In this document: piece after piece, positions 1,011 through 12,246 of the stretch
Layout of the letters: each line of letters begins with the position of its first letter
How positions within the stretch are numbered: position 1 is the first letter of the stretch
From: Bacilli bacterium
Lineage (GTDB): Bacteria > Bacillota_I > Bacilli_A > RF39 > UBA660
DNA length: 12,246 nt
Direction: 5' to 3'
Assembly: GCA_900757295.1 (NCBI GenBank)
Contig: CAAENH010000136.1
Coordinates: 1-12,246, forward strand
The notes under the pieces: model-generated
Seen by the model: the letters and a program-made list of their open reading frames with translations, nothing else
Told to the model about the DNA's origin: nothing
Database searches by the model: none
Program-made: the position numbers and the translations under genes

Positions 1011-2180
1011 ATGGAAAGTTTAAAATCAATGTATAATAATATGTCTGACATGAGTAAAATGCTTATTAAAATGTTATTAGGAATAATAGCTGCATTATTA
1101 TTTATGTTTTTAATTGTTTTTGTTGTTCGTATAATTGGTGGAGGTAAGAAAGGTTATAGTTCTACAGAAAGCACAATGCAATCTGCAGCAGTAAAATATT
1201 TTAAAAAACATAAAAGTAAATTACCTTTAGATAATGAAGAAGCTGTTGTAAATGTTAATACTTTGGTTTCTGAAGAGTATATGAAGGAATTAACAAAGTA
1301 TGTAGGAAAAAATACTACTTGTAAAGGTAATGTAACTGTTTTAAATAATGATGGAAATTATATTTATTTACCATATTTAGATTGTGGTAAGAAATATAAA
1401 ACTGAGTTATTAAAAGATAGTATTTTAAAGGATAATGAAGTAGTAGAGTCTGGTGATGGATTATATTTAGATGATGATGGAAATTATATATTCCGTGGTG
1501 AATTTGTAAATAATTATCTTATTTTTAATAATTTGAAATTCCGTATTTTAAGAATTAATGCTGATGGCTCAATAAAATTATTTTTAGCTGGTCCTATTAA
1601 AGGATATAAATCTACTATTTGGGATGACAGATATAATATTGAAAAAGATGATAAGACTGGTATAAATAACTATGCTAAGAGTAGAATAAAAGATTATTTG
1701 TATACTATTTATAAAGATGATGAAATATTTAACGATAATGCAAAAGCTTTAATGAAAAAACAAAGTTTATGTGTTGCTTCTAGAGATATAGATAGTGAAG
1801 ATTTAACAGATGCTCAAGAGTGTAGCGAAACTTTAGACAATGAAGAGCTTGGTTTACTTCAATTAAATGAGTATGTATTACCTAGTATTGATGAAAATTG
1901 TACTAAAGCATCTGATAAGAGTTGTATAAATTATAATTATATGAAATCATATCAACAATCTTTTTGGTCAATCACACCATATGCTGATGATACATATCAA
2001 GTTTATAGAATTGCTAATGCTGTATATCTAGCTAAGGCAAAAAGTACAGGAAGTGTATTATTTACACTAAGTCTATCTGATAAAGCTCAATTAAAATCAG
2101 GTGATGGAAGCAGTGAAAATCCTTATATCGTTAAAGATTATAATAAATCTTCTAATGATAAAATAAAAAATGCATCTTAG
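1011..2180 (+). CDS. Membrane-anchored extracellular protein of unknown function
   Basis: The product has 389 residues. ATG 1011 follows AAAGGAG at 998-1004. A short N-terminal segment leads into one membrane helix (about residues 20-41) followed by GGGKK, so most of the chain is probably outside the cell. After the helix comes 'ESTMQSAAVKYFKKHKSKLP', which looks like the stalk of bitopic or pilin-like secreted proteins. A middle region (about 150-260) has alternating strands (YIFRGEFVNNYLIFNNLKFRIL) and several Cys (CVASRD, QECSE, ENCTK, KSCIN). The C-terminus carries 'SGDGSSENPYIVKD', a motif I associate with exported proteins of low-GC Firmicutes. The function is unknown. The last codons form half of the terminator shared with the convergent sortase gene. 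Confidence 0.85.
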   Translation: MESLKSMYNNMSDMSKMLIKMLLGIIAALLFMFLIVFVVRIIGGGKKGYSSTESTMQSAAVKYFKKHKSKLPLDNEEAVVNVNTLVSEEYMKELTKYVGKNTTCKGNVTVLNNDGNYIYLPYLDCGKKYKTELLKDSILKDNEVVESGDGLYLDDDGNYIFRGEFVNNYLIFNNLKFRILRINADGSIKLFLAGPIKGYKSTIWDDRYNIEKDDKTGINNYAKSRIKDYLYTIYKDDEIFNDNAKALMKKQSLCVASRDIDSEDLTDAQECSETLDNEELGLLQLNEYVLPSIDENCTKASDKSCINYNYMKSYQQSFWSITPYADDTYQVYRIANAVYLAKAKSTGSVLFTLSLSDKAQLKSGDGSSENPYIVKDYNKSSNDKIKNAS

Positions 2181-2192
2181 GATGCATTTTTT
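2165..2192. terminator. Bidirectional terminator embedded in the ends of two convergent genes
   Basis: A perfect 12-bp stem (2165-2176 and 2181-2192; AAAAAATGCATC / GATGCATTTTTT) has a TTAG loop. The loop holds both stop codons: TAG on + (2178-2180) and TAA on - (2177-2179). The A run on one side becomes the T run on the other, so it should work for both strands. Confidence 0.9.
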
Positions 2193-3757
2193 ATTAACTT
2201 AGCGTGTATTACTAATCTTTTATTATTATCAACACAAGTAGATATTGTTAGTATTTTGTCTTCTTTAGTTACATCAACATTAAAATCTTTGATACTTCTA
2301 TTTTTTATAACATTTAAAAACTTTTTATAAGCGGCTTTACTGCTAAAGGATGTTGTTAAATAATCATTTGTGTTATGAATTTTATATATTGAAAATATTT
2401 GCCATTGCATATTCTCATATAAATTATTGAAAGTTATTTTTAAATTTTCATTATTATTTTGCCATTCTTCATTCAGTACATTATTTAGTGTTCCAAACAT
2501 TGTTTGATTTAAATACTTATTATGACCATAAATTATTGTATTCTGATCTAATTTATCTATATCATTTCTATAATCAGCAAATATCCAACCATTATAATTT
2601 TTATTATGATAATAGTCATTTTTTAAATAATAATCATTATTTGTTGTTTGGACAACAGGGTAGTCAACATTAGTATTGTTAATTTTTAACCAACCAACAG
2701 TATCTTTATTAACTTCTAATAAACTATCAAATAATTCGTTAATTTTTTTTGTATCAGATAGATTATCTTCTACTTTGTTAATATTAAAATCATTATTTTT
2801 AGTTTTGACAACAATTTTATTTAAATCCTTATTTATTTTAGCTACAGATTTTTGATCTTTATAATTATTAAATATTACAACTCCGAAAAATACAACAAAA
2901 ATGCTTATTATAATGAAACAACACATTTTAATATTATTAACTACCAATTGACTAAATAAGTTATTGCTAATATATTCATCACTATAAACTAGTTTTAATT
3001 CAACGCCATATTTTTTACAATAAGTTTTGTTAATTTTCTTTAAATATTCTATAAGTTTGATATCAGTTATATTTTCGTGAATTAATATTTTAATATTTTT
3101 AATTTTGGTTTTGTAAGTTATAGCAACAATTTTATTTATAGTTTCTTTGTCAAAAAATTCTAGATTAATATTTTTCAAATATTTATTTATTTGACAGAAA
3201 GAATGAAAATCATTTAAATCTTCATCAGTTAATTTTTGATCTATAATAATACTATTTTTATAATATATCTTAGAATAATTTATTAAATTGTTTGATTCCA
3301 TAAAATGACTAGTAAAAAAAATTTCATCTCGGCATTCAACTTTTATTTTATTTTTATCAAATTGTTCTAAAATAAACTTTGGAATAGAGTAACAGTTAAC
3401 ATATTTAATATTTTTACAATTTTTTATTTTAACGAACAAGTCATAATTTAATGGAGTAAAATCTTCAATATATAATTCTTTAATATTTTTATTTTTTACG
3501 AAAAGATCTAATATTATTAATCCAATATTAATATCTTTTATTTTTAATTTAGATATTTTATTTTCAGTGATTATTTCATCAAGGAAAGATGTAACAATAC
3601 TTTTATTCTTTTTAATATAATCTTCAGAAAAAGCTAGTTCATTTTCAGATATTATATTAGTATTAAGTAAATTATGGATGGTATTATCAGTTTTATAAGT
3701 AAAATTTAAATATGGACCTAGAACATTAATTAAAATTTTCTTAATAATAATCACCAC
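2177..3757 (-). CDS. Class B sortase with a large N-terminal cytoplasmic domain
   Basis: The product has about 526 residues. The C-terminal ~190 are a class B sortase: 'GWLKINNTNVDYPVVQ' (355-370), 'IYGHN' with catalytic His412, 'TISTC' with nucleophile Cys508, and Arg514 in KRLVIHA. One membrane helix lies at about 277-298, so the catalytic domain is outside the cell. The extra part is residues 1-275, rich in Ile, Lys and Asn, with repeated short hydrophobic strands (NIKELYIEDF, NIKYVNCYSI, IKNIKILIH) that faintly suggest a leucine-rich-repeat-like fold. Usual class B sortases are about 220-300 residues, so this architecture is unusual. The start is uncertain. GTG codons at 3757 and 3754 lie on top of the ribosome binding site AGGTGG, and no ATG is in frame before residue 153; an ATT at 3748 or 3745 would be spaced better. 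The divergent neighbour encodes a likely substrate. Confidence 0.9.
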   Translation of the reverse strand: MVIIIKKILINVLGPYLNFTYKTDNTIHNLLNTNIISENELAFSEDYIKKNKSIVTSFLDEIITENKISKLKIKDINIGLIILDLFVKNKNIKELYIEDFTPLNYDLFVKIKNCKNIKYVNCYSIPKFILEQFDKNKIKVECRDEIFFTSHFMESNNLINYSKIYYKNSIIIDQKLTDEDLNDFHSFCQINKYLKNINLEFFDKETINKIVAITYKTKIKNIKILIHENITDIKLIEYLKKINKTYCKKYGVELKLVYSDEYISNNLFSQLVVNNIKMCCFIIISIFVVFFGVVIFNNYKDQKSVAKINKDLNKIVVKTKNNDFNINKVEDNLSDTKKINELFDSLLEVNKDTVGWLKINNTNVDYPVVQTTNNDYYLKNDYYHNKNYNGWIFADYRNDIDKLDQNTIIYGHNKYLNQTMFGTLNNVLNEEWQNNNENLKITFNNLYENMQWQIFSIYKIHNTNDYLTTSFSSKAAYKKFLNVIKNRSIKDFNVDVTKEDKILTISTCVDNNKRLVIHAKLIKNAS

Positions 3758-4630: not shown

Positions 4631-6388
4631 ATGTTTGGAAATATAATAGATATAGATGATAATAAAGTTACTTTAGTTAATTTAAAACAAGAAGCAGAAA
4701 CTAATATTTTAAATTATCATGTTATTTTTGTTGAGAATGATCGCAAAGTAGTTGGTGAAATAGTTGGTATTAATAATGAAGTTATTAAAATATTGTTAGT
4801 AGGAGAAATTAAAAATGATATTTTTACTTCTGGCGTAATAAAAAAGCCTAGTTTTAAAACTCCAGCTAGATTAATTTATAAAAGTGAATTAGAACTTATA
4901 TTAGGAAGTCAAGATATTGCAGCAAAAGAAAATCTTTTAATTGGTAAGTCAACCACATATGAAGGATATAACATATCTACTAAAATAAATGATTTTTTTA
5001 CATCTCATTTTGCAATTGTGGGAAATACTGGTGCAGGAAAATCATGTGGTGTAGCTAGAATATTGCAAAATATTTTTTATCATAATGATGAGGCAATGCC
5101 TATTAATGCTCATATAGTTTTATTTGATGCTTATGGCGAATATAATAGTGCTTTTAGTAAAATGAATAGTTTACCTAATTTAAGATTTAAACATTATACA
5201 ACTAATACTGGTTTTGATGATTCACAATTAATTAAAATTCCTGCTTATTTTTTAGATGTAGATGATTTAGCTTTACTTTTAAATTGTAAAGATTCATCTA
5301 TGTTACCAATAATAGAGCAAGCTTTGAAATTAGTATACATTTTTACTAGTGAAAATGAGCAGGTAGTAGAGTATAAAAATGATATAATTGCTAAAAGTTT
5401 ACAAGATATTTTAGCAAGTGGAAAGAATTCTACTCAAATTAGAGATCAAATTATTGCTGTATTATCAAAATATAACACTGATACTTTAAATTTAGATACT
5501 ATTATTTCTCAACCTGGATATAATCGTACAATTAGACAATGTTTAAATATAGATGCACAGGGTAAAATGAATTCAGTTGGTTTTGTAGTTGATTTTCTGC
5601 AACAATATTCAAAAGTTGATTTAGAAAAAATTGAGTCTACTGCTGATTTTACATACACTTTAGATGATTTATATTATGCTTTAGAATTTGCTTTAATTGG
5701 AGAAGGAATATTAAGTAGTGAAACTATTTATGAAAAAGCTAATCAATTAAAAGTTAGATTACATGCTATTATAAATAGTGATTCTAAGAAATTTTTTGAA
5801 TTTGATAAAAAGATTGGTAAAGAACAATATATTAAAGAGTTTTTTACTGCTAATGATGGCATGCCTGCTCAAATAGTAAATGTTAATTTTAATTATATTG
5901 ATGAAAGATTTGCTAAAGTTTTAACTAAAATATTTGCAAGGCTATTCTTTAATTATACTGTTCATCTAACTAATAGAGCTTCATTTCCTATTCATATAAT
6001 TATAGAAGAAGCTCATAGATACGTTCAAAATGATAATGATTTAGATTTATTAGGATATAATATTTTTGATAGAATAACTAAAGAAGGTCGTAAGTATGGC
6101 GTTATTTTAGGGCTGATTACTCAAAGACCTAGTGAATTATCGACAACTTCATTATCGCAATGTTCTAATTTTATAGCTTTTAGAATGTTCCATCCAGCTG
6201 ATATAAATATAATTTCTAATATAACTTCTAATGTTAGTAATGATACTATTGAAAGAATAAAAACTTTAAGACCTGGTATGGCTATGGCTTTTGGAACAGC
6301 ATTTAAAGTTCCATTAATAGCAAAATTAGATTTACCTGATCCAATGCCAGCAAGTACTAGTGTTGATATAGAGAAAATATGGTATTAA
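4631..6388 (+). CDS. HerA-like DUF87 ATPase (hexameric DNA translocase type)
   Basis: The 585-residue cytoplasmic protein starts at ATG 4631 after AGGTGAT (4621-4627). Residues 1-90 resemble the small beta barrel found at the N-terminus of HerA proteins (VGEIVGINNEVIKILLVGEI). Walker A is GNTGAGKS at 131-138, within 'FFTSHFAIVGNTGAGKSCGV'. Walker B is 'IIIEEAHR' with Glu459/Glu460. It is followed by 'ITKEGRKYGVILGLITQRPS', the sensor-like segment typical of HerA and related FtsK-fold ATPases. Archaeal HerA works with the NurA nuclease in DNA end resection, but bacterial homologues are often in other contexts. No nuclease gene is next to it here, so the partner is unknown. It is the longest gene in the window and appears intact. 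Confidence 0.88.
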   Translation: MFGNIIDIDDNKVTLVNLKQEAETNILNYHVIFVENDRKVVGEIVGINNEVIKILLVGEIKNDIFTSGVIKKPSFKTPARLIYKSELELILGSQDIAAKENLLIGKSTTYEGYNISTKINDFFTSHFAIVGNTGAGKSCGVARILQNIFYHNDEAMPINAHIVLFDAYGEYNSAFSKMNSLPNLRFKHYTTNTGFDDSQLIKIPAYFLDVDDLALLLNCKDSSMLPIIEQALKLVYIFTSENEQVVEYKNDIIAKSLQDILASGKNSTQIRDQIIAVLSKYNTDTLNLDTIISQPGYNRTIRQCLNIDAQGKMNSVGFVVDFLQQYSKVDLEKIESTADFTYTLDDLYYALEFALIGEGILSSETIYEKANQLKVRLHAIINSDSKKFFEFDKKIGKEQYIKEFFTANDGMPAQIVNVNFNYIDERFAKVLTKIFARLFFNYTVHLTNRASFPIHIIIEEAHRYVQNDNDLDLLGYNIFDRITKEGRKYGVILGLITQRPSELSTTSLSQCSNFIAFRMFHPADINIISNITSNVSNDTIERIKTLRPGMAMAFGTAFKVPLIAKLDLPDPMPASTSVDIEKIWY

Positions 6389-6828: not shown

Positions 6829-6856
6829 ACTTTTATTAAGCATTTGGCATACATTA
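6829..6856 (+). promoter_or_regulatory. Mother-cell sporulation promoter (sigma-E or sigma-K type) of cotE
   Basis: CATACATTA (6848-6856) fits the sigma-K -10 CATAnnnTA exactly, and its first eight bases also fit the sigma-E -10 CATACA(A/C/T)T. An AC at 6829-6830 lies 17 bp upstream, as expected of a sigma-K -35. No sigma-E -35 is convincing. The site is 20 bp before the cotE start codon. In B. subtilis cotE is known to have both sigma-E and sigma-K promoters. Confidence 0.65.
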
Positions 6857-6875: not shown

Positions 6876-7034
6876 ATGGCCACATACAAAGAGATTGTTA
6901 CTAAGGCTATTATTGGTAAGGGTAAAAAAACAAGTAACACAAGTTGTTCAATAACTCCAGAGGTGACTCCAGATACTGTATTAGGGTGTTGGGTTATAAA
7001 TCATGAGTTGGTTTTTGGTGATAATTTATTTTGA
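6876..7034 (+). CDS. cotE: cotE, 5' part: outer spore coat morphogenetic protein, split by an inserted element
   Basis: ATG 6876 follows a strong AGAGGAGG (6861-6868). The 52-codon frame encodes the CotE N-terminus: 'MATYKEIVTKAIIGKGKK' aligns with the YREIITKAVVAKGRK start I recall for Bacillus CotE, and 'VLGCWVINHE' with its ILG-WIINHK. CotE organises the outer spore coat from the mother-cell side. After codon 44 the frame leaves cotE. The last eight codons (VVFGDNLF-like, ending at TGA 7032-7034) come from the inserted element. The remaining 133 residues are encoded at 10050-10457. If the element is excised at the CATGAGTT repeats, the joined gene has 178 codons including the stop, close to the ~181 residues of B. 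subtilis CotE. As it stands, the unexcised gene would give only a 52-residue fragment. Confidence 0.9.
   Translation: MATYKEIVTKAIIGKGKKTSNTSCSITPEVTPDTVLGCWVINHELVFGDNLF
7002..7009 (+). repeat. Left attachment core (attL), CATGAGTT
   Basis: This is the 8-bp direct repeat shared with 10050-10057. It begins at codon 43 (CAT GAG TT) of cotE. The flanking base differs on both sides (T before and G after here; A before and T after at the right end), so the identity is exactly 8 bp. Short identity is typical of large serine recombinase sites. Confidence 0.85.
7011..7029 (+). repeat. Left attP arm: 19-bp terminal inverted repeat
   Basis: GTTTTTGGTGATAATTTAT is the exact reverse complement of 10024-10042. 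It starts 1 bp inside the left core. In an excised circle the two arms would flank a 16-bp centre containing CATGAGTT, making a symmetric ~54-bp site, about the size of known serine integrase attP sites. Confidence 0.85.
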
Positions 7035-7038
7035 AATT

Positions 7039-7066
7039 AAAGATACTTTAGACAAAAGTATCTTTT
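7039..7066 (+). terminator. Hairpin terminator at the left end of the element
   Basis: An 11-bp stem AAAGATACTTT / AAAGTATCTTT (7039-7049 and 7055-7065) with loop AGACA; the T run is short (four). It lies 4 bp after the premature stop of the cotE 5' part, so it would end transcripts from the cotE promoter before the element's genes. Confidence 0.65.
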
Positions 7067-7079
7067 AATGTGCTATTAT
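7049..7079 (+). promoter_or_regulatory. Possible vegetative promoter of the ASCH gene
   Basis: TAGACA (7049-7054, starting in the last stem base of the terminator hairpin and covering its loop) and TATTAT (7074-7079) preceded by TGC form an extended -10 promoter with a 19-bp spacer. It is 22 bp before the start codon. Confidence 0.5.
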
Positions 7080-7100
7080 ATATAAATAAAGGTGGTATTA

Positions 7101-7511
7101 ATGAAAGTATTGAGTATTAAGGAACCATTTGCAACTTTAATAGCAAATGGTTTAAAGAAAATTGAAACAAGAAGTTGGAAAACTAATTATAGAGGTGAAA
7201 TTTTTATACATGCTAGTGGTAAAAGTTTAGCAAAAGAATATTTAACCAATGATTTTGTATTGGAAATAATTAAAGATTTGAATATGAATTATGGAAATAT
7301 TATTTGCAGATGTAATCTAACTGATTGTGTTTATATGGATGAAAAATTTTTAAATTTTATAAAAAATAATCCTAAAGAATATAATTTAGGTGACTATAAA
7401 TTAGGAAGGTATGCATGGATTTTAGAAGATGTCCAATTAATTTATCCAATACAAGCAAAGGGAAAATTGAACATTTGGAATTTTGAAGGAAAATATAAGT
7501 TAATGAAATAA
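7101..7511 (+). CDS. ASCH domain protein (element cargo)
   Basis: The 136-residue soluble protein starts at ATG 7101 after AAAGGTGGT (7088-7095); an in-frame GTG at 7092 lies inside that site and is rejected. The N-terminus 'VLSIKEPFATLIANGLKKIE' followed by TRSWKTNYRGEIFIHAS (to residue 39) is the classic ASCH signature. Related lines read S(I/L)xxPWAxLIxxGxKxIExRxWxTxYRGxxxIHAS. The C-terminal 'GRYAWILEDVQLIYPIQAKGKLNIW' also fits. ASCH domains are PUA-related folds that bind or process RNA or modified nucleosides; the E. coli member YqfB hydrolyses N4-acetylcytidine. Here it is the first gene inside the cotE element and is followed 84 bp later by an acetyltransferase. Its role in the element is not known. 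Confidence 0.88.
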   Translation: MKVLSIKEPFATLIANGLKKIETRSWKTNYRGEIFIHASGKSLAKEYLTNDFVLEIIKDLNMNYGNIICRCNLTDCVYMDEKFLNFIKNNPKEYNLGDYKLGRYAWILEDVQLIYPIQAKGKLNIWNFEGKYKLMK

Positions 7512-7557
7512 TTAATATAAATGGCGGTAGTATTGACAAAGTAATTTATGTATATTA

Positions 7558-7579
7558 CCATATATAACAGTATATATGG
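7558..7579. repeat. Perfect palindrome upstream of the GNAT gene (operator or hairpin)
   Basis: CCATATATA and TATATATGG (9 bp each, 7558-7566 and 7571-7579) are separated by ACAG. It lies 16 bp before the GNAT start codon, downstream of a consensus TTGACA at 7533-7538. There is no T run, so it is not a terminator; a repressor site or a hairpin in the leader is more likely. Confidence 0.6.
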
Positions 7580-7595
7580 GATATGGTGGATTTTA

Positions 7596-8162
7596 ATGGT
7601 TAATCTAAAAAGAATAGTAAGTGAAGATGAATTTGAGAAAGGAATAAAAGCTTTAATTTCTATATTCATTGAAGAATATCCATATTTTTCAACCTGGATA
7701 TCAAATAATATGTATCAATTTAAAAATGGAGAAAAGCAAATATTAGGCATTGAGAAAAAAGATGGAATAGTTGGTTATTTAATGATTCATTTTTGTAGTT
7801 CTAAAATAGTAAAAATAAATGGTATTTATATTTTTGATGAATTTAGTAATCAAGGCGTAGCCACTGCTGCTATAAATGAACTTATAAACAAACTGACGAA
7901 ACTCTTTATCGATTTAATATATATTCAAACAAGATTGGATAATAATTCAGTAGTTCATTTATTTGACAAAACAAATTTTCAATTAATTGGTACTAATTTT
8001 CATGAAGTAGAAAATAAGAATAATTGGGTTGCGTGTCATAAAATTAATTCTTCAATAACGAATGAACAAGAAATTGCACAAAAACTTTATAAAGTTTTTT
8101 TACCATTAAAGCAAAATGAAATTATTTCATTAAGAAATGAACATAAAAATACTTTATATTAA
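7596..8162 (+). CDS. GNAT family N-acetyltransferase (element cargo)
   Basis: The 188-residue soluble protein starts at ATG 7596 after GGTGGA (7585-7590). The frame extends upstream to 7548, but that would place the palindrome in coding sequence and lacks a ribosome binding site. The GNAT fold is visible as a strand pair 'GIEKKDGIVGYLMIHF' (51-66), the strand 'IVKINGIYIFDEF' (71-83) and the acetyl-CoA loop 'SNQGVATAAINELI' (84-97, of the Q-x-x-G-x-G/A type). Near residue 120-130 'NSVVHLFDKTNFQLIG' matches the usual late GNAT motif (N..(A/V)..(F/Y)...GF...G). The C-terminal 50 residues are variable and may be for substrate choice. The substrate is unknown. The stop codon lies inside a terminator, so transcription of the recombinase is separate. 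Confidence 0.8.
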   Translation: MVNLKRIVSEDEFEKGIKALISIFIEEYPYFSTWISNNMYQFKNGEKQILGIEKKDGIVGYLMIHFCSSKIVKINGIYIFDEFSNQGVATAAINELINKLTKLFIDLIYIQTRLDNNSVVHLFDKTNFQLIGTNFHEVENKNNWVACHKINSSITNEQEIAQKLYKVFLPLKQNEIISLRNEHKNTLY

Positions 8163-8174
8163 AGTGTTTTTTTT
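8146..8174 (+). terminator. Intrinsic terminator between cargo genes and recombinase unit
   Basis: An 11-bp stem (8146-8156 and 8160-8170, one G-T pair) with loop TAT and an 8-base T run. It separates ASCH-GNAT transcription from the recombinase unit. Confidence 0.85.
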
Positions 8175-8190
8175 ATTTAAACAACAATAA

Positions 8191-8218
8191 TCATAAATGG
8201 AAATTTAATTCATAAGTT
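8191..8218 (+). promoter_or_regulatory. Candidate sigma-E-like promoter of the recombinase unit
   Basis: TCATAAA (8191-8197), 13 bp, then CATAAGTT (8211-8218) partly match the sigma-E pattern (K-M-ATATT, 13-15 bp, CATACAnT). No good vegetative promoter is seen between the upstream terminator and the 39-codon ORF at 8243. The match is incomplete, so this is a hypothesis. Confidence 0.35.
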
Positions 8219-8242
8219 TAAATAAAAAGGAGCATAAAAAGC

Positions 8243-8362
8243 ATGGATAAAGTATTGAATATTAATTTATTTTATAAAGAAAACGGAGTAAAAATTTTAG
8301 AAGTATTAACTAATGATTTTAGTGATTTTTTGGATGACTATATAAAAAAAATAATAAAATAA
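8243..8362 (+). CDS. 39-residue small protein directly upstream of the recombinase
   Basis: ATG 8243 follows AAAAGGAG (8225-8232) at a somewhat long spacing of 10. The product 'MDKVLNINLFYKENGVKILE' continues to a Lys-rich end, with a short strand and a helix (FSDFLDDYIKKIIK). Its stop codon overlaps the ribosome binding site of the recombinase (AAAGGAG, 8361-8367), so the two are translationally coupled. Small ORFs of this style commonly precede serine recombinase genes in Firmicutes elements. The known directionality factor of the SPbeta recombinase (SprB) is also a very small protein, so a directionality role is possible. There is no sequence evidence beyond size and position. Confidence 0.65.
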   Translation: MDKVLNINLFYKENGVKILEVLTNDFSDFLDDYIKKIIK

Positions 8363-8371
8363 AGGAGAGTT

Positions 8372-10015
8372 ATGAATTATAATTGTTCTAATTATAAAGT
8401 AACATTAAAAAATTATAAATCAAGTGAAATTGCTAAATATATTAGATTGTCATTAGCTGATGAGACAATAGTTGGTGATGAAAGTGAAAGTGTTACTAAC
8501 CAAAGAAGATTGATGAATGAATTTATTACTAGAAATGGCAATATTGGTGAGAATTGTAAAGAATTTGTAGATGATGGTGTTAGTGGAACTAATTTTGATA
8601 GACCTGGTTGGAAAGAACTACAAGAAGCTATGGAAACTGGTAAAATTAAAGTTGTAATTACTAAAAGTTTATCAAGATTGGGAAGAAGTAATTTTGAATG
8701 TAGTTATTATTTAGATTGCTATTTTCCTGATAATAATATTAGATATATTGCCATACAAGAACAAATTGATACAGGTAATATAGAAAATTCTAACAATGAA
8801 TACGCTGCTTTGAATAATTTCATTAATGAAAAATATTCTAGAGATTTATCAAAGAATATAAGAAGAGTTTATAAAATAAAACAATTTGCCGGTGAATATA
8901 TGGGTGGCAAACCTGTGTTTGGATATATTAAAGATCCGAATGATAAACATAAATTAATTATAGATGAAGAGGCAGCAAATATCGTAAGAAAAGTATTTAA
9001 TTCATATTTAGAATTACAGTCCCAAAGTGCTGTTATGAAGATATTAAGCAACGAAAAAATTCCAATTCCTGAAGTGTATAAAAAAACTAGAAGAGGTTTA
9101 AAAGTGAAATTTCCTTATGAATGGAATTATCATACTATTAGAAGCATGCTAAGAAATAGAATGTATATAGGTGATATGGTTCAAAATGTTCATATAAAAA
9201 AAAGTTTTAGAGAAAAGAAAATTATTAAAACCAAAAAAGAAGATTGGATAATTGTTGAAGGAACACATGAACCTATTATTGAAAGAAGTATTTTTGAACG
9301 TGTTCAAGCTTTATTGGATGCTAATTATAGACAGCCAACTTCTGAATATCAAAGAATTTTTAAAGGGTTAATGTATTGTTATGAGTGTGGTCATAAAATA
9401 GGTGTTGGTAATCAAAAAAGGGATAATCGACCTATTGAAAAACAATATGTTTATACTTATTGTAATTTTTATCGAAAAAATAGTGCATATAACAAGTGTA
9501 CACCTCACACAATTAATTATAATAGTTTAGAAGAACAATTGCTTAATATTATTACAAAAATATGTAAAAAATATATTCATTTAATTGAATATGAAAATAT
9601 TATAAAAAAAAGAAAAAAGAATTTTTTTACATACACTGACTCTTTACAAAAGAGAATAACTAAATTAAAACTTGATATTAAAAGTATTGATTTGAAAATT
9701 GAAAAATTGTATATGGATAGATTGGACGAAATTATTTCATCTAATATTTACAAAAAATTAACAGATAAATTCGAGCAACAAAAGGAAAAAAAGAAAAAAG
9801 AAATTGCTGAATTAAAAATTTTAATTCAAGATTATAAAAAAGATGATTTTTTAGAAAGTCTATTGAAAACACAGAAGATAATTAAAGAATATTTTAAGAG
9901 TAGGAAAGAATCGCCAAAAGAATTAATTTTAAAAATCGTTGATAAAATTGAAATTCATCAAGATAAGAGTATTGATTTATATTTGAAAATAGAACAACTA
10001 AATAAAGTTGTTTAA
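8372..10015 (+). CDS. Large serine recombinase of the cotE element
   Basis: The 547-residue product starts at ATG 8372. The resolvase catalytic domain has the nucleophile in 'KYIRLS' (Ser27), then 'ESVTNQRRLMNEF' (39-51), 'FVDDGVSGTNFDRPG' and 'VVITKSLSRLGR', the standard catalytic Arg region. A recombinase domain follows (about 170-330: 'GEYMGGKPVFGYIKDPNDKH', 'WNYHTIRSMLRNRMYIGDMV'). A zinc ribbon has Cys336, Cys339, Cys364 and Cys376. A long Lys-rich coiled coil spans about 415-500, and the end 'ILKIVDKIEIHQDKSIDLYL' resembles DUF4368-type tails of Clostridial transposon recombinases (TnpX/TndX group). The length is close to skin SpoIVCA (about 500). All catalytic residues look intact. It is the only recombinase in the element and ends 9 bp before the right attP arm. 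Confidence 0.95.
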   Translation: MNYNCSNYKVTLKNYKSSEIAKYIRLSLADETIVGDESESVTNQRRLMNEFITRNGNIGENCKEFVDDGVSGTNFDRPGWKELQEAMETGKIKVVITKSLSRLGRSNFECSYYLDCYFPDNNIRYIAIQEQIDTGNIENSNNEYAALNNFINEKYSRDLSKNIRRVYKIKQFAGEYMGGKPVFGYIKDPNDKHKLIIDEEAANIVRKVFNSYLELQSQSAVMKILSNEKIPIPEVYKKTRRGLKVKFPYEWNYHTIRSMLRNRMYIGDMVQNVHIKKSFREKKIIKTKKEDWIIVEGTHEPIIERSIFERVQALLDANYRQPTSEYQRIFKGLMYCYECGHKIGVGNQKRDNRPIEKQYVYTYCNFYRKNSAYNKCTPHTINYNSLEEQLLNIITKICKKYIHLIEYENIIKKRKKNFFTYTDSLQKRITKLKLDIKSIDLKIEKLYMDRLDEIISSNIYKKLTDKFEQQKEKKKKEIAELKILIQDYKKDDFLESLLKTQKIIKEYFKSRKESPKELILKIVDKIEIHQDKSIDLYLKIEQLNKVV

Positions 10016-10023
10016 AAAATAAC

Positions 10024-10042
10024 ATAAATTATCACCAAAAAC
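10024..10042 (-). repeat. Right attP arm: 19-bp terminal inverted repeat
   Basis: ATAAATTATCACCAAAAAC is the exact reverse complement of 7011-7029. It is 7 bp inside the right core, so the centre of symmetry of the joined attP falls at the CA at the start of CATGAGTT. Confidence 0.85.
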
Positions 10043-10049
10043 TATTACA

Positions 10050-10057
10050 CATGAGTT
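10050..10057 (+). repeat. Right attachment core (attR), CATGAGTT
   Basis: Second copy of the 8-bp direct repeat. In the cotE frame it reads CAT GAG TT(T), the same codon phase as at 7002-7009. Confidence 0.85.
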
Positions 10058-10457
10058 TAACGGTACAAATAATAATGGCAAAATAAATGTTAATGGAAGT
10101 TTCGATGTAAATGTTTGGTATTCATATGATAATAATACTAAAACAGGGGTAGTTACAGATACTTTTAATTATAATGATAATATGAATATGAAATTAGAAA
10201 ATACTTCTAAATTAAATAATAAATCTGATATTATAGTTAGATCGTTAACTCAACCAACAGTAACAGATGTAAAAATAGAAAATGGAACAGTAAAAATGAA
10301 TGTTCAAAAAGAATTAGGAATTGAAGTTGTAGGAGATACAATGGTTAAGGTTAGTGTTGAAGAAGATGAAGATGATTATGAAATTCTTGAAGATGATGTT
10401 AGTGATGAAGATATAAAAAATATAGACGAGGAAGTTGACGAAGATTATTTAAAATAA
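10050..10457 (+). CDS. cotE: cotE, 3' part: residues 43-177 of the coat morphogenetic protein, no start of its own
   Basis: The frame from the right core reads [14 protein letters not shown], then '[20 protein letters not shown]', which aligns without gaps with [20 protein letters not shown] as I recall it from B. subtilis CotE. Later '[20 protein letters not shown]' matches the conserved LAEVVGETKVVVEV region, and the protein ends in a strongly acidic tail, also a CotE feature. There is no start codon with a ribosome binding site in the cotE-like part before the conserved core. An in-frame ATG at 10182 would skip the VNVWYSY motif. A stop at 10020-10022 closes the frame upstream, within the element. 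The segment is therefore expressed as CotE only after excision joins it to 6876-7001. Codons show no decay (no frameshifts or stops), which argues for continued selection. Confidence 0.9.
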   Translation, partial: [135 protein letters not shown]

Positions 10458-11161: not shown

Positions 11162-11659
11162 ATGTCTAAAAAAAATAAAGACGAATTCTTAAAGATAATT
11201 AATGATATTGAAAATAATAATAAATTTAAAGAATTAGATAATGAATTACATCACGGAATAACTAGATATGGTCATTCATATCGTGTAGCTAAAGCTACAT
11301 ATAAATTATCTAAAACTCTTAAAATGAATTATATAGATGCTACTAGAGCAGCATTATTACATGATTTTTACTTAGATAGTGATTTTAGTATTGAAAAGTC
11401 TACTAAAATATTATCTATTCATCCTAATGTTGCTTTAATAAATGCAAAAAAATATTTTGAAATAAATGATATGCAAGCGAATATCATAAAATCTCATATG
11501 TTTCCTTTAAATGGTGTAAGACCAAAATATAAAGAAAGCTGGTTAGTTTCTTTAATTGATAAATCAGTAGCTGTTTATGAATTGTATCGTTTTAAATTTA
11601 AAATGGTTATTAATATTTGGGCAATATTTTTATTTAATGTAATTACATTAAACAAATAG
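11162..11659 (+). CDS. HD-domain phosphohydrolase
   Basis: The 165-residue protein contains the HD metal-binding set: His38 (GHSYRVA), His67-Asp68 (ALLHDFYL), His112 (IIKSHMFP) and Asp133 (SLIDKSVA). This superfamily hydrolyses phosphate esters, often of nucleotides; the substrate here is unknown. The last ~20 residues (MVINIWAIFLFNVITLNK) are hydrophobic and could sit in or at the membrane. ATG 11162 has a GAGGTGA site at good spacing. The gene stands alone, with its own promoter and terminator, just upstream of sigK. Confidence 0.88.
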   Translation: MSKKNKDEFLKIINDIENNNKFKELDNELHHGITRYGHSYRVAKATYKLSKTLKMNYIDATRAALLHDFYLDSDFSIEKSTKILSIHPNVALINAKKYFEINDMQANIIKSHMFPLNGVRPKYKESWLVSLIDKSVAVYELYRFKFKMVINIWAIFLFNVITLNK

Positions 11660-11665
11660 TTAAAT

Positions 11666-11693
11666 AAGAATAATAAAAAGTTATTCTTTTTTT
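11666..11693 (+). terminator. Intrinsic terminator after the HD-domain gene
   Basis: An 8-bp stem AAGAATAA / TTATTCTT (11666-11673 and 11681-11688) with a 7-nt loop, then a T run. Confidence 0.8.
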
Positions 11694-11740
11694 CTTATAA
11701 AAATATTTAAAAATAATATAATTTATTAAGGAAGTGAATT

Positions 11741-12246
11741 ATGTTTTTAAATATTTTAAGTATTATTAAAGATATGTTATTTTTTACTGGAAGCTATTCT
11801 AATAATGTTTTTCCTGATCCTTTAAGTAAAGAAGAAGAGGAAGAAAACATTAATTTAATGCTTGCTGGTGATAAAAACGCAAGAAATAAATTGATTGAAC
11901 ATAATCTGCGACTTGTTGCACATATAGTAAAAAAATTTGAAACAAAGAACAATGATCCTGATGATCTAATTAGTATAGGAACTATTGGTTTAATTAAAGG
12001 CATAGATTCTTATAAAAACAATCATAAAACTAAAATAACTACTTATTGTGCGCGATGTATTGAAAATGAAATATTGATGCATTTTAGGTCTAATAAGAAA
12101 AATGATAATAATGTAAGTTTAAATGATTCAATAGGTTATGATAAAGAAGGAAATGAGATAAATTTAATTGATGTTTTAAAAGATAATCAAGTAGATATTA
12201 TTACAAAAATTCATAATAAAAATAATATAAAATTATTAAATGAATA
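11741..12246 (+). CDS. sigK: Mother-cell sporulation sigma factor SigK (5' 168 codons; runs off the window)
   Basis: ATG 11741 follows AAGGAAGTG (11729-11737). The first ~20 residues (MFLNILSIIKDMLFFTGSYS) are hydrophobic and correspond to the pro-sequence that SpoIVFB removes in B. subtilis. 'NNVFPDPLSKEEE' follows, then sigma region 2: 'ARNKLIEHNLRLVAHIVKKF', DDLISIGTIGLIKGI and 'TYCARCIENEILMHFR', and then 'IGYDKEGNEINLIDVL', which is specific for SigK as opposed to other sigma factors. SigK directs late mother-cell transcription of coat genes. The frame is continuous to the window edge, past the place where skin interrupts B. subtilis sigK (about codon 112). Region 4 is outside the window. 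Confidence 0.95.
   Translation, partial: MFLNILSIIKDMLFFTGSYSNNVFPDPLSKEEEEENINLMLAGDKNARNKLIEHNLRLVAHIVKKFETKNNDPDDLISIGTIGLIKGIDSYKNNHKTKITTYCARCIENEILMHFRSNKKNDNNVSLNDSIGYDKEGNEINLIDVLKDNQVDIITKIHNKNNIKLLNE

Follow-up and report, generated by a model that had tools for sequence, protein, structure and literature searches.

Intervening elements in sporulation genes

DNA elements that interrupt a sporulation gene and leave it again by excision (skin, SPbeta, vfbin, gin and yin) are known from a small set of host genes, those named in the published accounts consulted being sigK, spsM, spoVFB, spoVR, gerE and yabG. We analyzed a 12,246-nucleotide stretch of a Bacilli bacterium of the RF39 lineage (contig CAAENH010000136.1; this whole stretch is called the window hereafter), in which the coat gene cotE is interrupted at codon 43 by a 3-kb element with a site-specific recombinase and att sites at its ends. 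From the combined comparative evidence, we consider it probable that this element represents a cotE-specific family of intervening elements that are excised in the mother cell and work like skin, SPbeta and gin.

The gin element, in gerE of Bacillus cereus ATCC10987, is 28.6 kb long and its sporulation-specific excision is proven (PMC5595907). The cotE element resembles gin in being a non-phage element in a sporulation gene, in pairing a recombinase with a small protein (GirC and its partner GirX in gin) and in having a short shared core within an inverted repeat (PMC5595907). It differs from gin in its size of 3.0 kb, in encoding one recombinase instead of three and in that its excision is a prediction. 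SPbeta, in spsM of B. subtilis, relies on the serine recombinase SprA and on the 58-amino-acid (aa) SprB, which has a mother-cell promoter, and its departure restores the gene exactly (PMC4191935). A similar arrangement is proposed here, but SPbeta is an active prophage and sprA is expressed in vegetative cells (PMC4191935). Likewise, skinCd leaves sigK of C. difficile in the mother cell through the serine recombinase CD1231 and the 72-aa directionality factor CD1234, which is under sigma-E; unlike the cotE element, skinCd is prophage-like, lies in sigK and has a constitutive recombinase (PMC5025042). In the 13 relatives of the window that we examined sigK is uninterrupted, and the target is a coat gene. 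A coat-assembly gene is also hit by yin, which lies in yabG of C. botulinum and whose excised circle has been observed; yin is described from a single isolate (PMC10747680), whereas cotE elements are found in many genomes and appear to have inserted repeatedly at one codon.

What is new in the present case is the host gene, the lineage, the repeated insertion at one codon and the compactness of the module. The sequence-only reading of the window knew of no earlier description of cotE as a host gene, and our full-text literature searches agree with it: no element inside cotE appeared in titles or abstract beginnings, most subscription papers and preprints lying outside their scope. The cotE of C. 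difficile does appear in the literature, as a reporter and as a target, and is a protein unrelated to the CotE discussed here. If the proposed explanation is right, cotE, the organizer of the outer coat, joins the short list of genes that are rebuilt by DNA excision in sporulation. It would do so through a very compact example, 3 kb with two candidate excision genes, and with a new family of recombinase, att site and partner protein whose core is predicted to be 2 bp long. With elements of one kind at a single codon in many genomes, and with intact cotE in close relatives, a direct comparison could show whether carriers merely tolerate these elements as parasites or use them as timers. The system also opens the questions of how the gene of a directionality factor acquires a mother-cell promoter and of how the trait spreads.

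The interrupted cotE of the window and its natural counterparts

The two parts of cotE flank the element as follows.

6876..7009, + strand: 5' part of cotE; positions 2-42 of the Pfam CotE profile PF10628 (8e-15); ATG at 6876
7010..10057, + strand: intervening element as bounded by the direct repeat; 3,048 bp
10058..10457, + strand: 3' part of cotE after the direct repeat; positions 87-174 of PF10628 (1.4e-08); stop at 10457

The separate PF10628 matches on either side of the element mark the interrupted gene as a sporulation gene. The sequence CATGAGTT occurs twice, at 7002-7009 and at 10050-10057, with a spacing of 3,048 bp. In-silico joining of the cotE flanks returns 177 aa and a stop codon with no internal stop. 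The claims of the sequence-only reading that an element splits cotE and that the joined gene is an open frame of 178 codons are therefore both borne out.

The joined protein has counterparts in nature. P0001, an uninterrupted CotE of 177 aa that is present in four contigs, shares 99% identity with it and differs by one residue; P0027, which ends at a contig edge, likewise reads through the joint. The split form is represented by P0024, a 137-aa 3' fragment found in seven contigs. A nearly identical cotE thus occurs naturally both with and without the interruption. In two relatives with an intact gene (G293 and G386), 1.2 kb aligned with the empty site of the window at 78% identity, crossing the joint. 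The HerA-like, S16 and KH genes that surround cotE in the window also flank the empty site in these two genomes, and the HIT-type gene of the window had no match near it at 1e-8. Relatives with an intact cotE that matches the joined sequence, by which the sequence-only reading stood to be judged, were thus found.

The coexistence in public data of interrupted and uninterrupted alleles of a near-identical cotE would also fit a reversible, stochastic switch, in which the element could drop out of a fraction of the cells at any moment, giving mixed coat phenotypes with no developmental control. We regard such a switch as very improbable, as a conserved motif precedes the excision operon (see below) and recombinases of this type often need a directionality factor to excise (PMC5025042).

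The joint at codon 43 and the predicted core

We joined the cotE halves of 14 genomes (the window, G001-G010, L004, G346 and G214), leaving out G263, which has the 3' half only, G268 and G328. The joined frame was full length in all 14 (175-184 aa), and codon 43 was the joint in every one of them. Both halves and the element lay on one contig in nine genomes, with element sizes from 3,048 to 15,384 bp. The halves were on separate contigs in the remaining five, which, together with the metagenomic origin of all material, could point to an assembly artifact or a chimera. The sequence-only reading had named this danger, but in the nine complete cases the same codon is hit each time and the configuration recurs in 13 assemblies other than that of the window, so that we assign an artifact hardly any probability.

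Codon 43 at both borders is CAT in 12 genomes and AAT in G009, while the borders of G214 have CAT and CAC and share CA only. The first two bases of the codon are therefore the only pair that the two borders have in common in every genome. When attP was reconstructed from the two element ends, its best dyad axis fell exactly between these bases in each of the 14 genomes; in the window, it sits between the C and the A of the codon for His43. A large serine recombinase is expected to cross over at 2 bp, and the position of the axis fits this expectation. The 8-bp repeat that the sequence-only reading had reported is indeed present at both borders of the window, but it did not hold as a conserved core. 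Across the 14 genomes, the two borders have codon 43 in common (in G214 its first two bases), and GAGTT at both borders was seen in none of the other 13; we rejected the repeat as the functional core. The resulting att sites of the window are given below; the attP pattern had no match in 116 fetched loci.

7002..7029, + strand: attL; core codon CAT at 7002-7004, predicted crossover CA at 7002-7003, inverted-repeat half TTTTTGGTGATAATTTAT at 7012-7029
10024..10052, + strand: attR; inverted-repeat half ATAAATTATCACCAAAAA at 10024-10041, core codon CAT at 10050-10052

Recombinase, small protein and promoter-like motifs

The candidate excision genes and the motifs that precede them and cotE are the following.

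6829..6856, + strand: cotE promoter, sigma-K-like; AC at 6829-6830, 17 nucleotides (nt), CATACATTA at 6848-6856
8193..8218, + strand: sigma-E-like motif, putative promoter of the excision operon; ATAAA at 8193-8197, 13 nt, CATAAGTT at 8211-8218
8243..8362, + strand: small protein of 39 aa, candidate recombination directionality factor; 13 of 13 elements have a counterpart immediately before the recombinase gene
8372..10015, + strand: large serine recombinase of 547 aa; Resolvase, Recombinase and Zn-ribbon Pfam domains over cut-off

The recombinase is complete, as the sequence-only reading had stated, with all three domains. TnpX is its best sequence match in PDB, and R25, S27, D68, R102 and R105, which we take to be the catalytic residues, are invariant across an alignment of 32 recombinases. 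The ratio of nonsynonymous to synonymous substitution rates (dN/dS) of the recombinase is 0.055-0.155 in 29 pairs of relatives with more than 72% identity. The best NCBIfam match is NF041201 (3.3e-28), the model of XisF from the cyanobacterial fdxN element, and XisF carries out the developmental excision of this intervening element. At 98.9 bits, under the cut-off of 375, we rejected membership in the XisF family itself.

An open reading frame (ORF) of 35-41 aa, with starts chosen by hand, precedes the recombinase in all 13 elements where the region is assembled, and the 39-aa protein of the window has no match in NCBIfam. The gap between the small ORF and the recombinase is 9-113 bp where measured, and 9 bp in the window; sprA and sprB lie at opposite ends of the SPbeta prophage. 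Gaps of 71-113 bp are found in G001, G003-G007, G009 and L004, several of them with GGATTC and GAATCC-like arms and TATAAT-like boxes, and such a gap may represent a promoter for the recombinase alone or form an RNA hairpin.

Upstream of the small ORF, 11 of the 13 elements carry a motif composed of an A/T-rich -35 (ATATT, ATAAA, TATTTT or ATTTA), 11-15 nt and CATANN(T/C)TT, which we label sigma-E-like by comparison with the general consensus. The pattern, fitted to these upstreams, is found in 0 of 15 cotE upstreams and in 2 of 173 background ORFs, and in shuffled upstreams it occurs on average in 0.09 of 13 (near-identical pattern) and 0.03 of 13. Among 28 loci with more distant recombinases, a pattern search detected the small ORF only in six cousins of 50% identity, which share one identical sequence and lack the sigma-E-like motif. 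The gene cotE has a different signal: AC-N16/17-CATANNNTA, sigma-K-like by consensus, is found in 9 of 15 cotE upstreams and in 2 of 173 background ORFs, both of which are intact cotE genes (G293 and G386). In B. subtilis, cotE is transcribed by sigma-E from P1 and by sigma-K from P2 (PMC517825).

Some elements may be wired differently. Those of G010 (L097, 763-2582) and G346 (L108, 111-1088) encode sigma-70-type factors, and a sigma-type gene lies also within the element of G007, where the motif is present. In G346 (L109/L011), the start codon of the small ORF and the stop codon of the cotE 5' fragment overlap (ATGA), and hence the small ORF would be expected to be driven by the promoter of cotE itself.

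Distribution among genomes and hosts

We scanned genome_contigs with the alignment of 32 recombinases and obtained 40 loci. A cotE half lies beside the recombinase at all 12 loci with at least 52% identity (L001-L011 and L017), while cotE was not found within the fetched stretch at 1e-3 in the six 50% loci and in 22 others. Ten of the 12 loci belonged to genomes that were searched whole, and cotE is in two pieces in ten out of ten. Six Clostridia contigs (L012-L016 and L018) carry an identical cousin recombinase with 50% identity and the same kind of small ORF. In L015 (7662-9573), this recombinase adjoins valS, of which the part starting near position 263 of 860 is present there, an odd break for an essential gene.

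The order was sampled with 385 genomes, of which 346 had a cotE match. Among the matches listed, which extend to about 1e-87 and so leave out short fragments, a recombinase with at least 63% identity occurs in G001, G002, G003, G004, G006 and G346, and cotE is in two pieces in all six. G263 has a 67% recombinase fragment at a contig end, with only the 3' half of cotE behind it, and the next match among those listed drops to 41%. In G214, cotE is also in two pieces, with a C-terminal recombinase fragment beside the 3' half. Element-split cotE is thus found in at least 8 of the 346 genomes with cotE. In a class-level sample of 395 genomes, only G001-G003 themselves scored beyond 1e-120 for the recombinase.

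Other candidates from these searches were not counted as element-split. The contig ends of G328 overlap inside cotE, as in an assembly break; G377 has adjacent, overlapping cotE pieces that resemble a frameshift; G379 has two full-length copies; and in G085 the second match is weak. G268 (L103) has an intact cotE at 2498-3010 and, about 8.4 kb further on at 11437-11829, a near-identical second 3' half behind an attR-like arm, with no recombinase seen. This is perhaps a degenerate or bypassed state, in a lineage that escaped dependence on excision.

The genomes with split cotE retain sporulation genes. In the 13 that were examined (those of L004 and of the window are not among them), a full-length SigK-type gene is always present, seven times over the curated cut-off and otherwise within 10 bits of it, and so is spoIVA, the two pieces of which lie on different contigs in G006 and in G214. 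In the window, the best match of the sigma gene at 11741, which runs past the window end, is SigK. One CotE relative comes from Candidatus Caccenecus, which NCBI places in Bacilli incertae sedis and which belongs to the GTDB order RF39. RF39 is predicted to form spores (PMC10868615).

Movement between hosts and selection

We built a tree of 125 CotE proteins (FastTree, midpoint root), in which the 14 split genes fall into 11 separate all-split clades, counted on topology alone. The divergence of the recombinases conflicts with that of their hosts. G001 and G002 have recombinases with 95% identity (dS 0.2) and CotE with 51%, and G008 and G009 show 91% and 47%, respectively; G346 and G010 are the opposite, with 59% for the recombinases and 91% for CotE. 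Over 78 pairs, the two identities are weakly correlated (Spearman 0.37, P-value 0.0009), and in 74 of them the recombinases have the higher identity. Because of the 11 clades and this conflict, we conclude that elements have repeatedly crossed from one species to another and entered this single codon, at times replacing an earlier element.

The selection test on the cotE halves that the sequence-only reading had proposed together with the phylogeny gave a clear signal in one pair only. In G010 and G346, both split, the dN/dS of the cotE 3' part is 0.073, and the 5' part has a dN of 0.05 and a dS of 0.52.

We lean, with some reserve, towards a wider interpretation. Codon 43 would be a homing site used repeatedly, across an order of gut Bacilli, by elements that range from about 3 kb to conjugative size and have in common an excision module of two genes controlled by the mother cell. 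Coat assembly would then depend on excision in many unrelated carriers. Its timing would have been rewired in some lineages, such as G346, with its excision genes directly behind the cotE promoter, and G010 and G346, with sigma factors of their own. The switch known from sigK would have moved from a regulator to a coat organizer.

Proposed excision during sporulation

In the mechanism that we propose, codon 43 of cotE houses a site-specific mobile element whose large serine recombinase, together with the 39-aa protein, would bring about recombination between attL and attR, with the crossover at the CA of codon His43. The element would leave as a circle and cotE would be restored exactly. The operon of small protein and recombinase would be read from the sigma-E-like promoter, for which reason excision should fall early in sporulation and in the mother cell, ahead of the transcription of cotE from its sigma-K-like promoter. 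Since the mother cell dies, the germ line would keep the element. The constant codon, the frame that can be restored in 14 of 14 genomes, the low dN/dS of the recombinase and, in one informative split pair, of the cotE halves, and the conserved mother-cell-like motif support the sequence-only reading of a sporulation-excised element in cotE, with excision during sporulation as its predicted step.

Alternatively, a conserved codon of cotE may simply serve as the attachment site of a mobile element. In this case, cotE would stay broken, excision would serve transfer only, and the gut would tolerate coat defects. The elements do move between species, and that of G001, which spans two contigs and is probably a large conjugative form, encodes a VirD4-like coupling protein (253.2 bits, with a cut-off of 250 for NF045973). 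Moreover, B. subtilis is viable without cotE, and excision of the cotE element is predicted rather than observed. We nevertheless judge plain disruption to be unlikely: both halves are open and can be joined in all 14 genomes, both show low dN/dS in G010 and G346, a mother-cell-like motif lies ahead of the excision operon and the carriers retain the promoter motif of cotE.

Several observations weigh against developmental excision. As P0001 differs by one residue, it may come from a different strain whose site is empty, and not from a gene restored by excision. The junction of the excised circle (attP pattern) had no match in 16 whole genomes, and neither the attP nor the attL pattern had one in viral_contigs. 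The sigma-E-like pattern was defined after inspection of the same sequences, the textbook sigma-E -10 CATACANT matched in 0 of 13 element upstreams, and the two elements that lack the motif are those of G346 and G010; as assembled, the recombinase of G346 begins without a standard start codon. In the nine other split pairs that, with G010 and G346, made up the comparison, the dN/dS of the cotE 3' part is 0.18-0.59, at high and less informative dS. The sporulation of these hosts is itself a prediction.

Cargo and neighboring genes

Between attL and the excision operon, the window element carries two further genes.

7092..7511, + strand: cargo ASCH-domain protein of 139 aa; PF04266, 6.5e-07
7548..8162, + strand: cargo GNAT acetyltransferase of 204 aa; PF00583, 1.1e-09

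Besides these and the recombinase, the other ORFs of at least 50 aa are nameless, short antisense frames. Among the ORFs of this size in the window copy, Pfam recognized no phage structural or replication gene (no PHROGs search was run) and no conjugation gene. With no phage gene recognized and no relative in viral_contigs, we rejected a prophage.

Cargo differs among elements, as indicated by a survey of a selection of their larger ORFs. The elements of G001 and G002 have 10.8 kb of cargo in common, at 88% identity, and that of G007 encodes ArdC-type and SpaA-repeat proteins. Elsewhere, the cargo includes ATP-grasp/amino-acid ligase-like, radical SAM, glycosyltransferase, MBOAT and other proteins. 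In G001 (L111 and L112), about 40 kb can be read from the cotE 5' half into the element, including a DNA methylase, a SpaA-repeat protein and the 10.8-kb cluster in common with G002, and the far end lies beyond.

In the window, the HerA-like ATPase upstream of cotE (4631-6388) has anti-phage HerA models as its top NCBIfam matches, far under cut-off. A sortase-domain protein, whose long N-terminal part is of uncertain nature, is encoded on the minus strand at 2177-3757.

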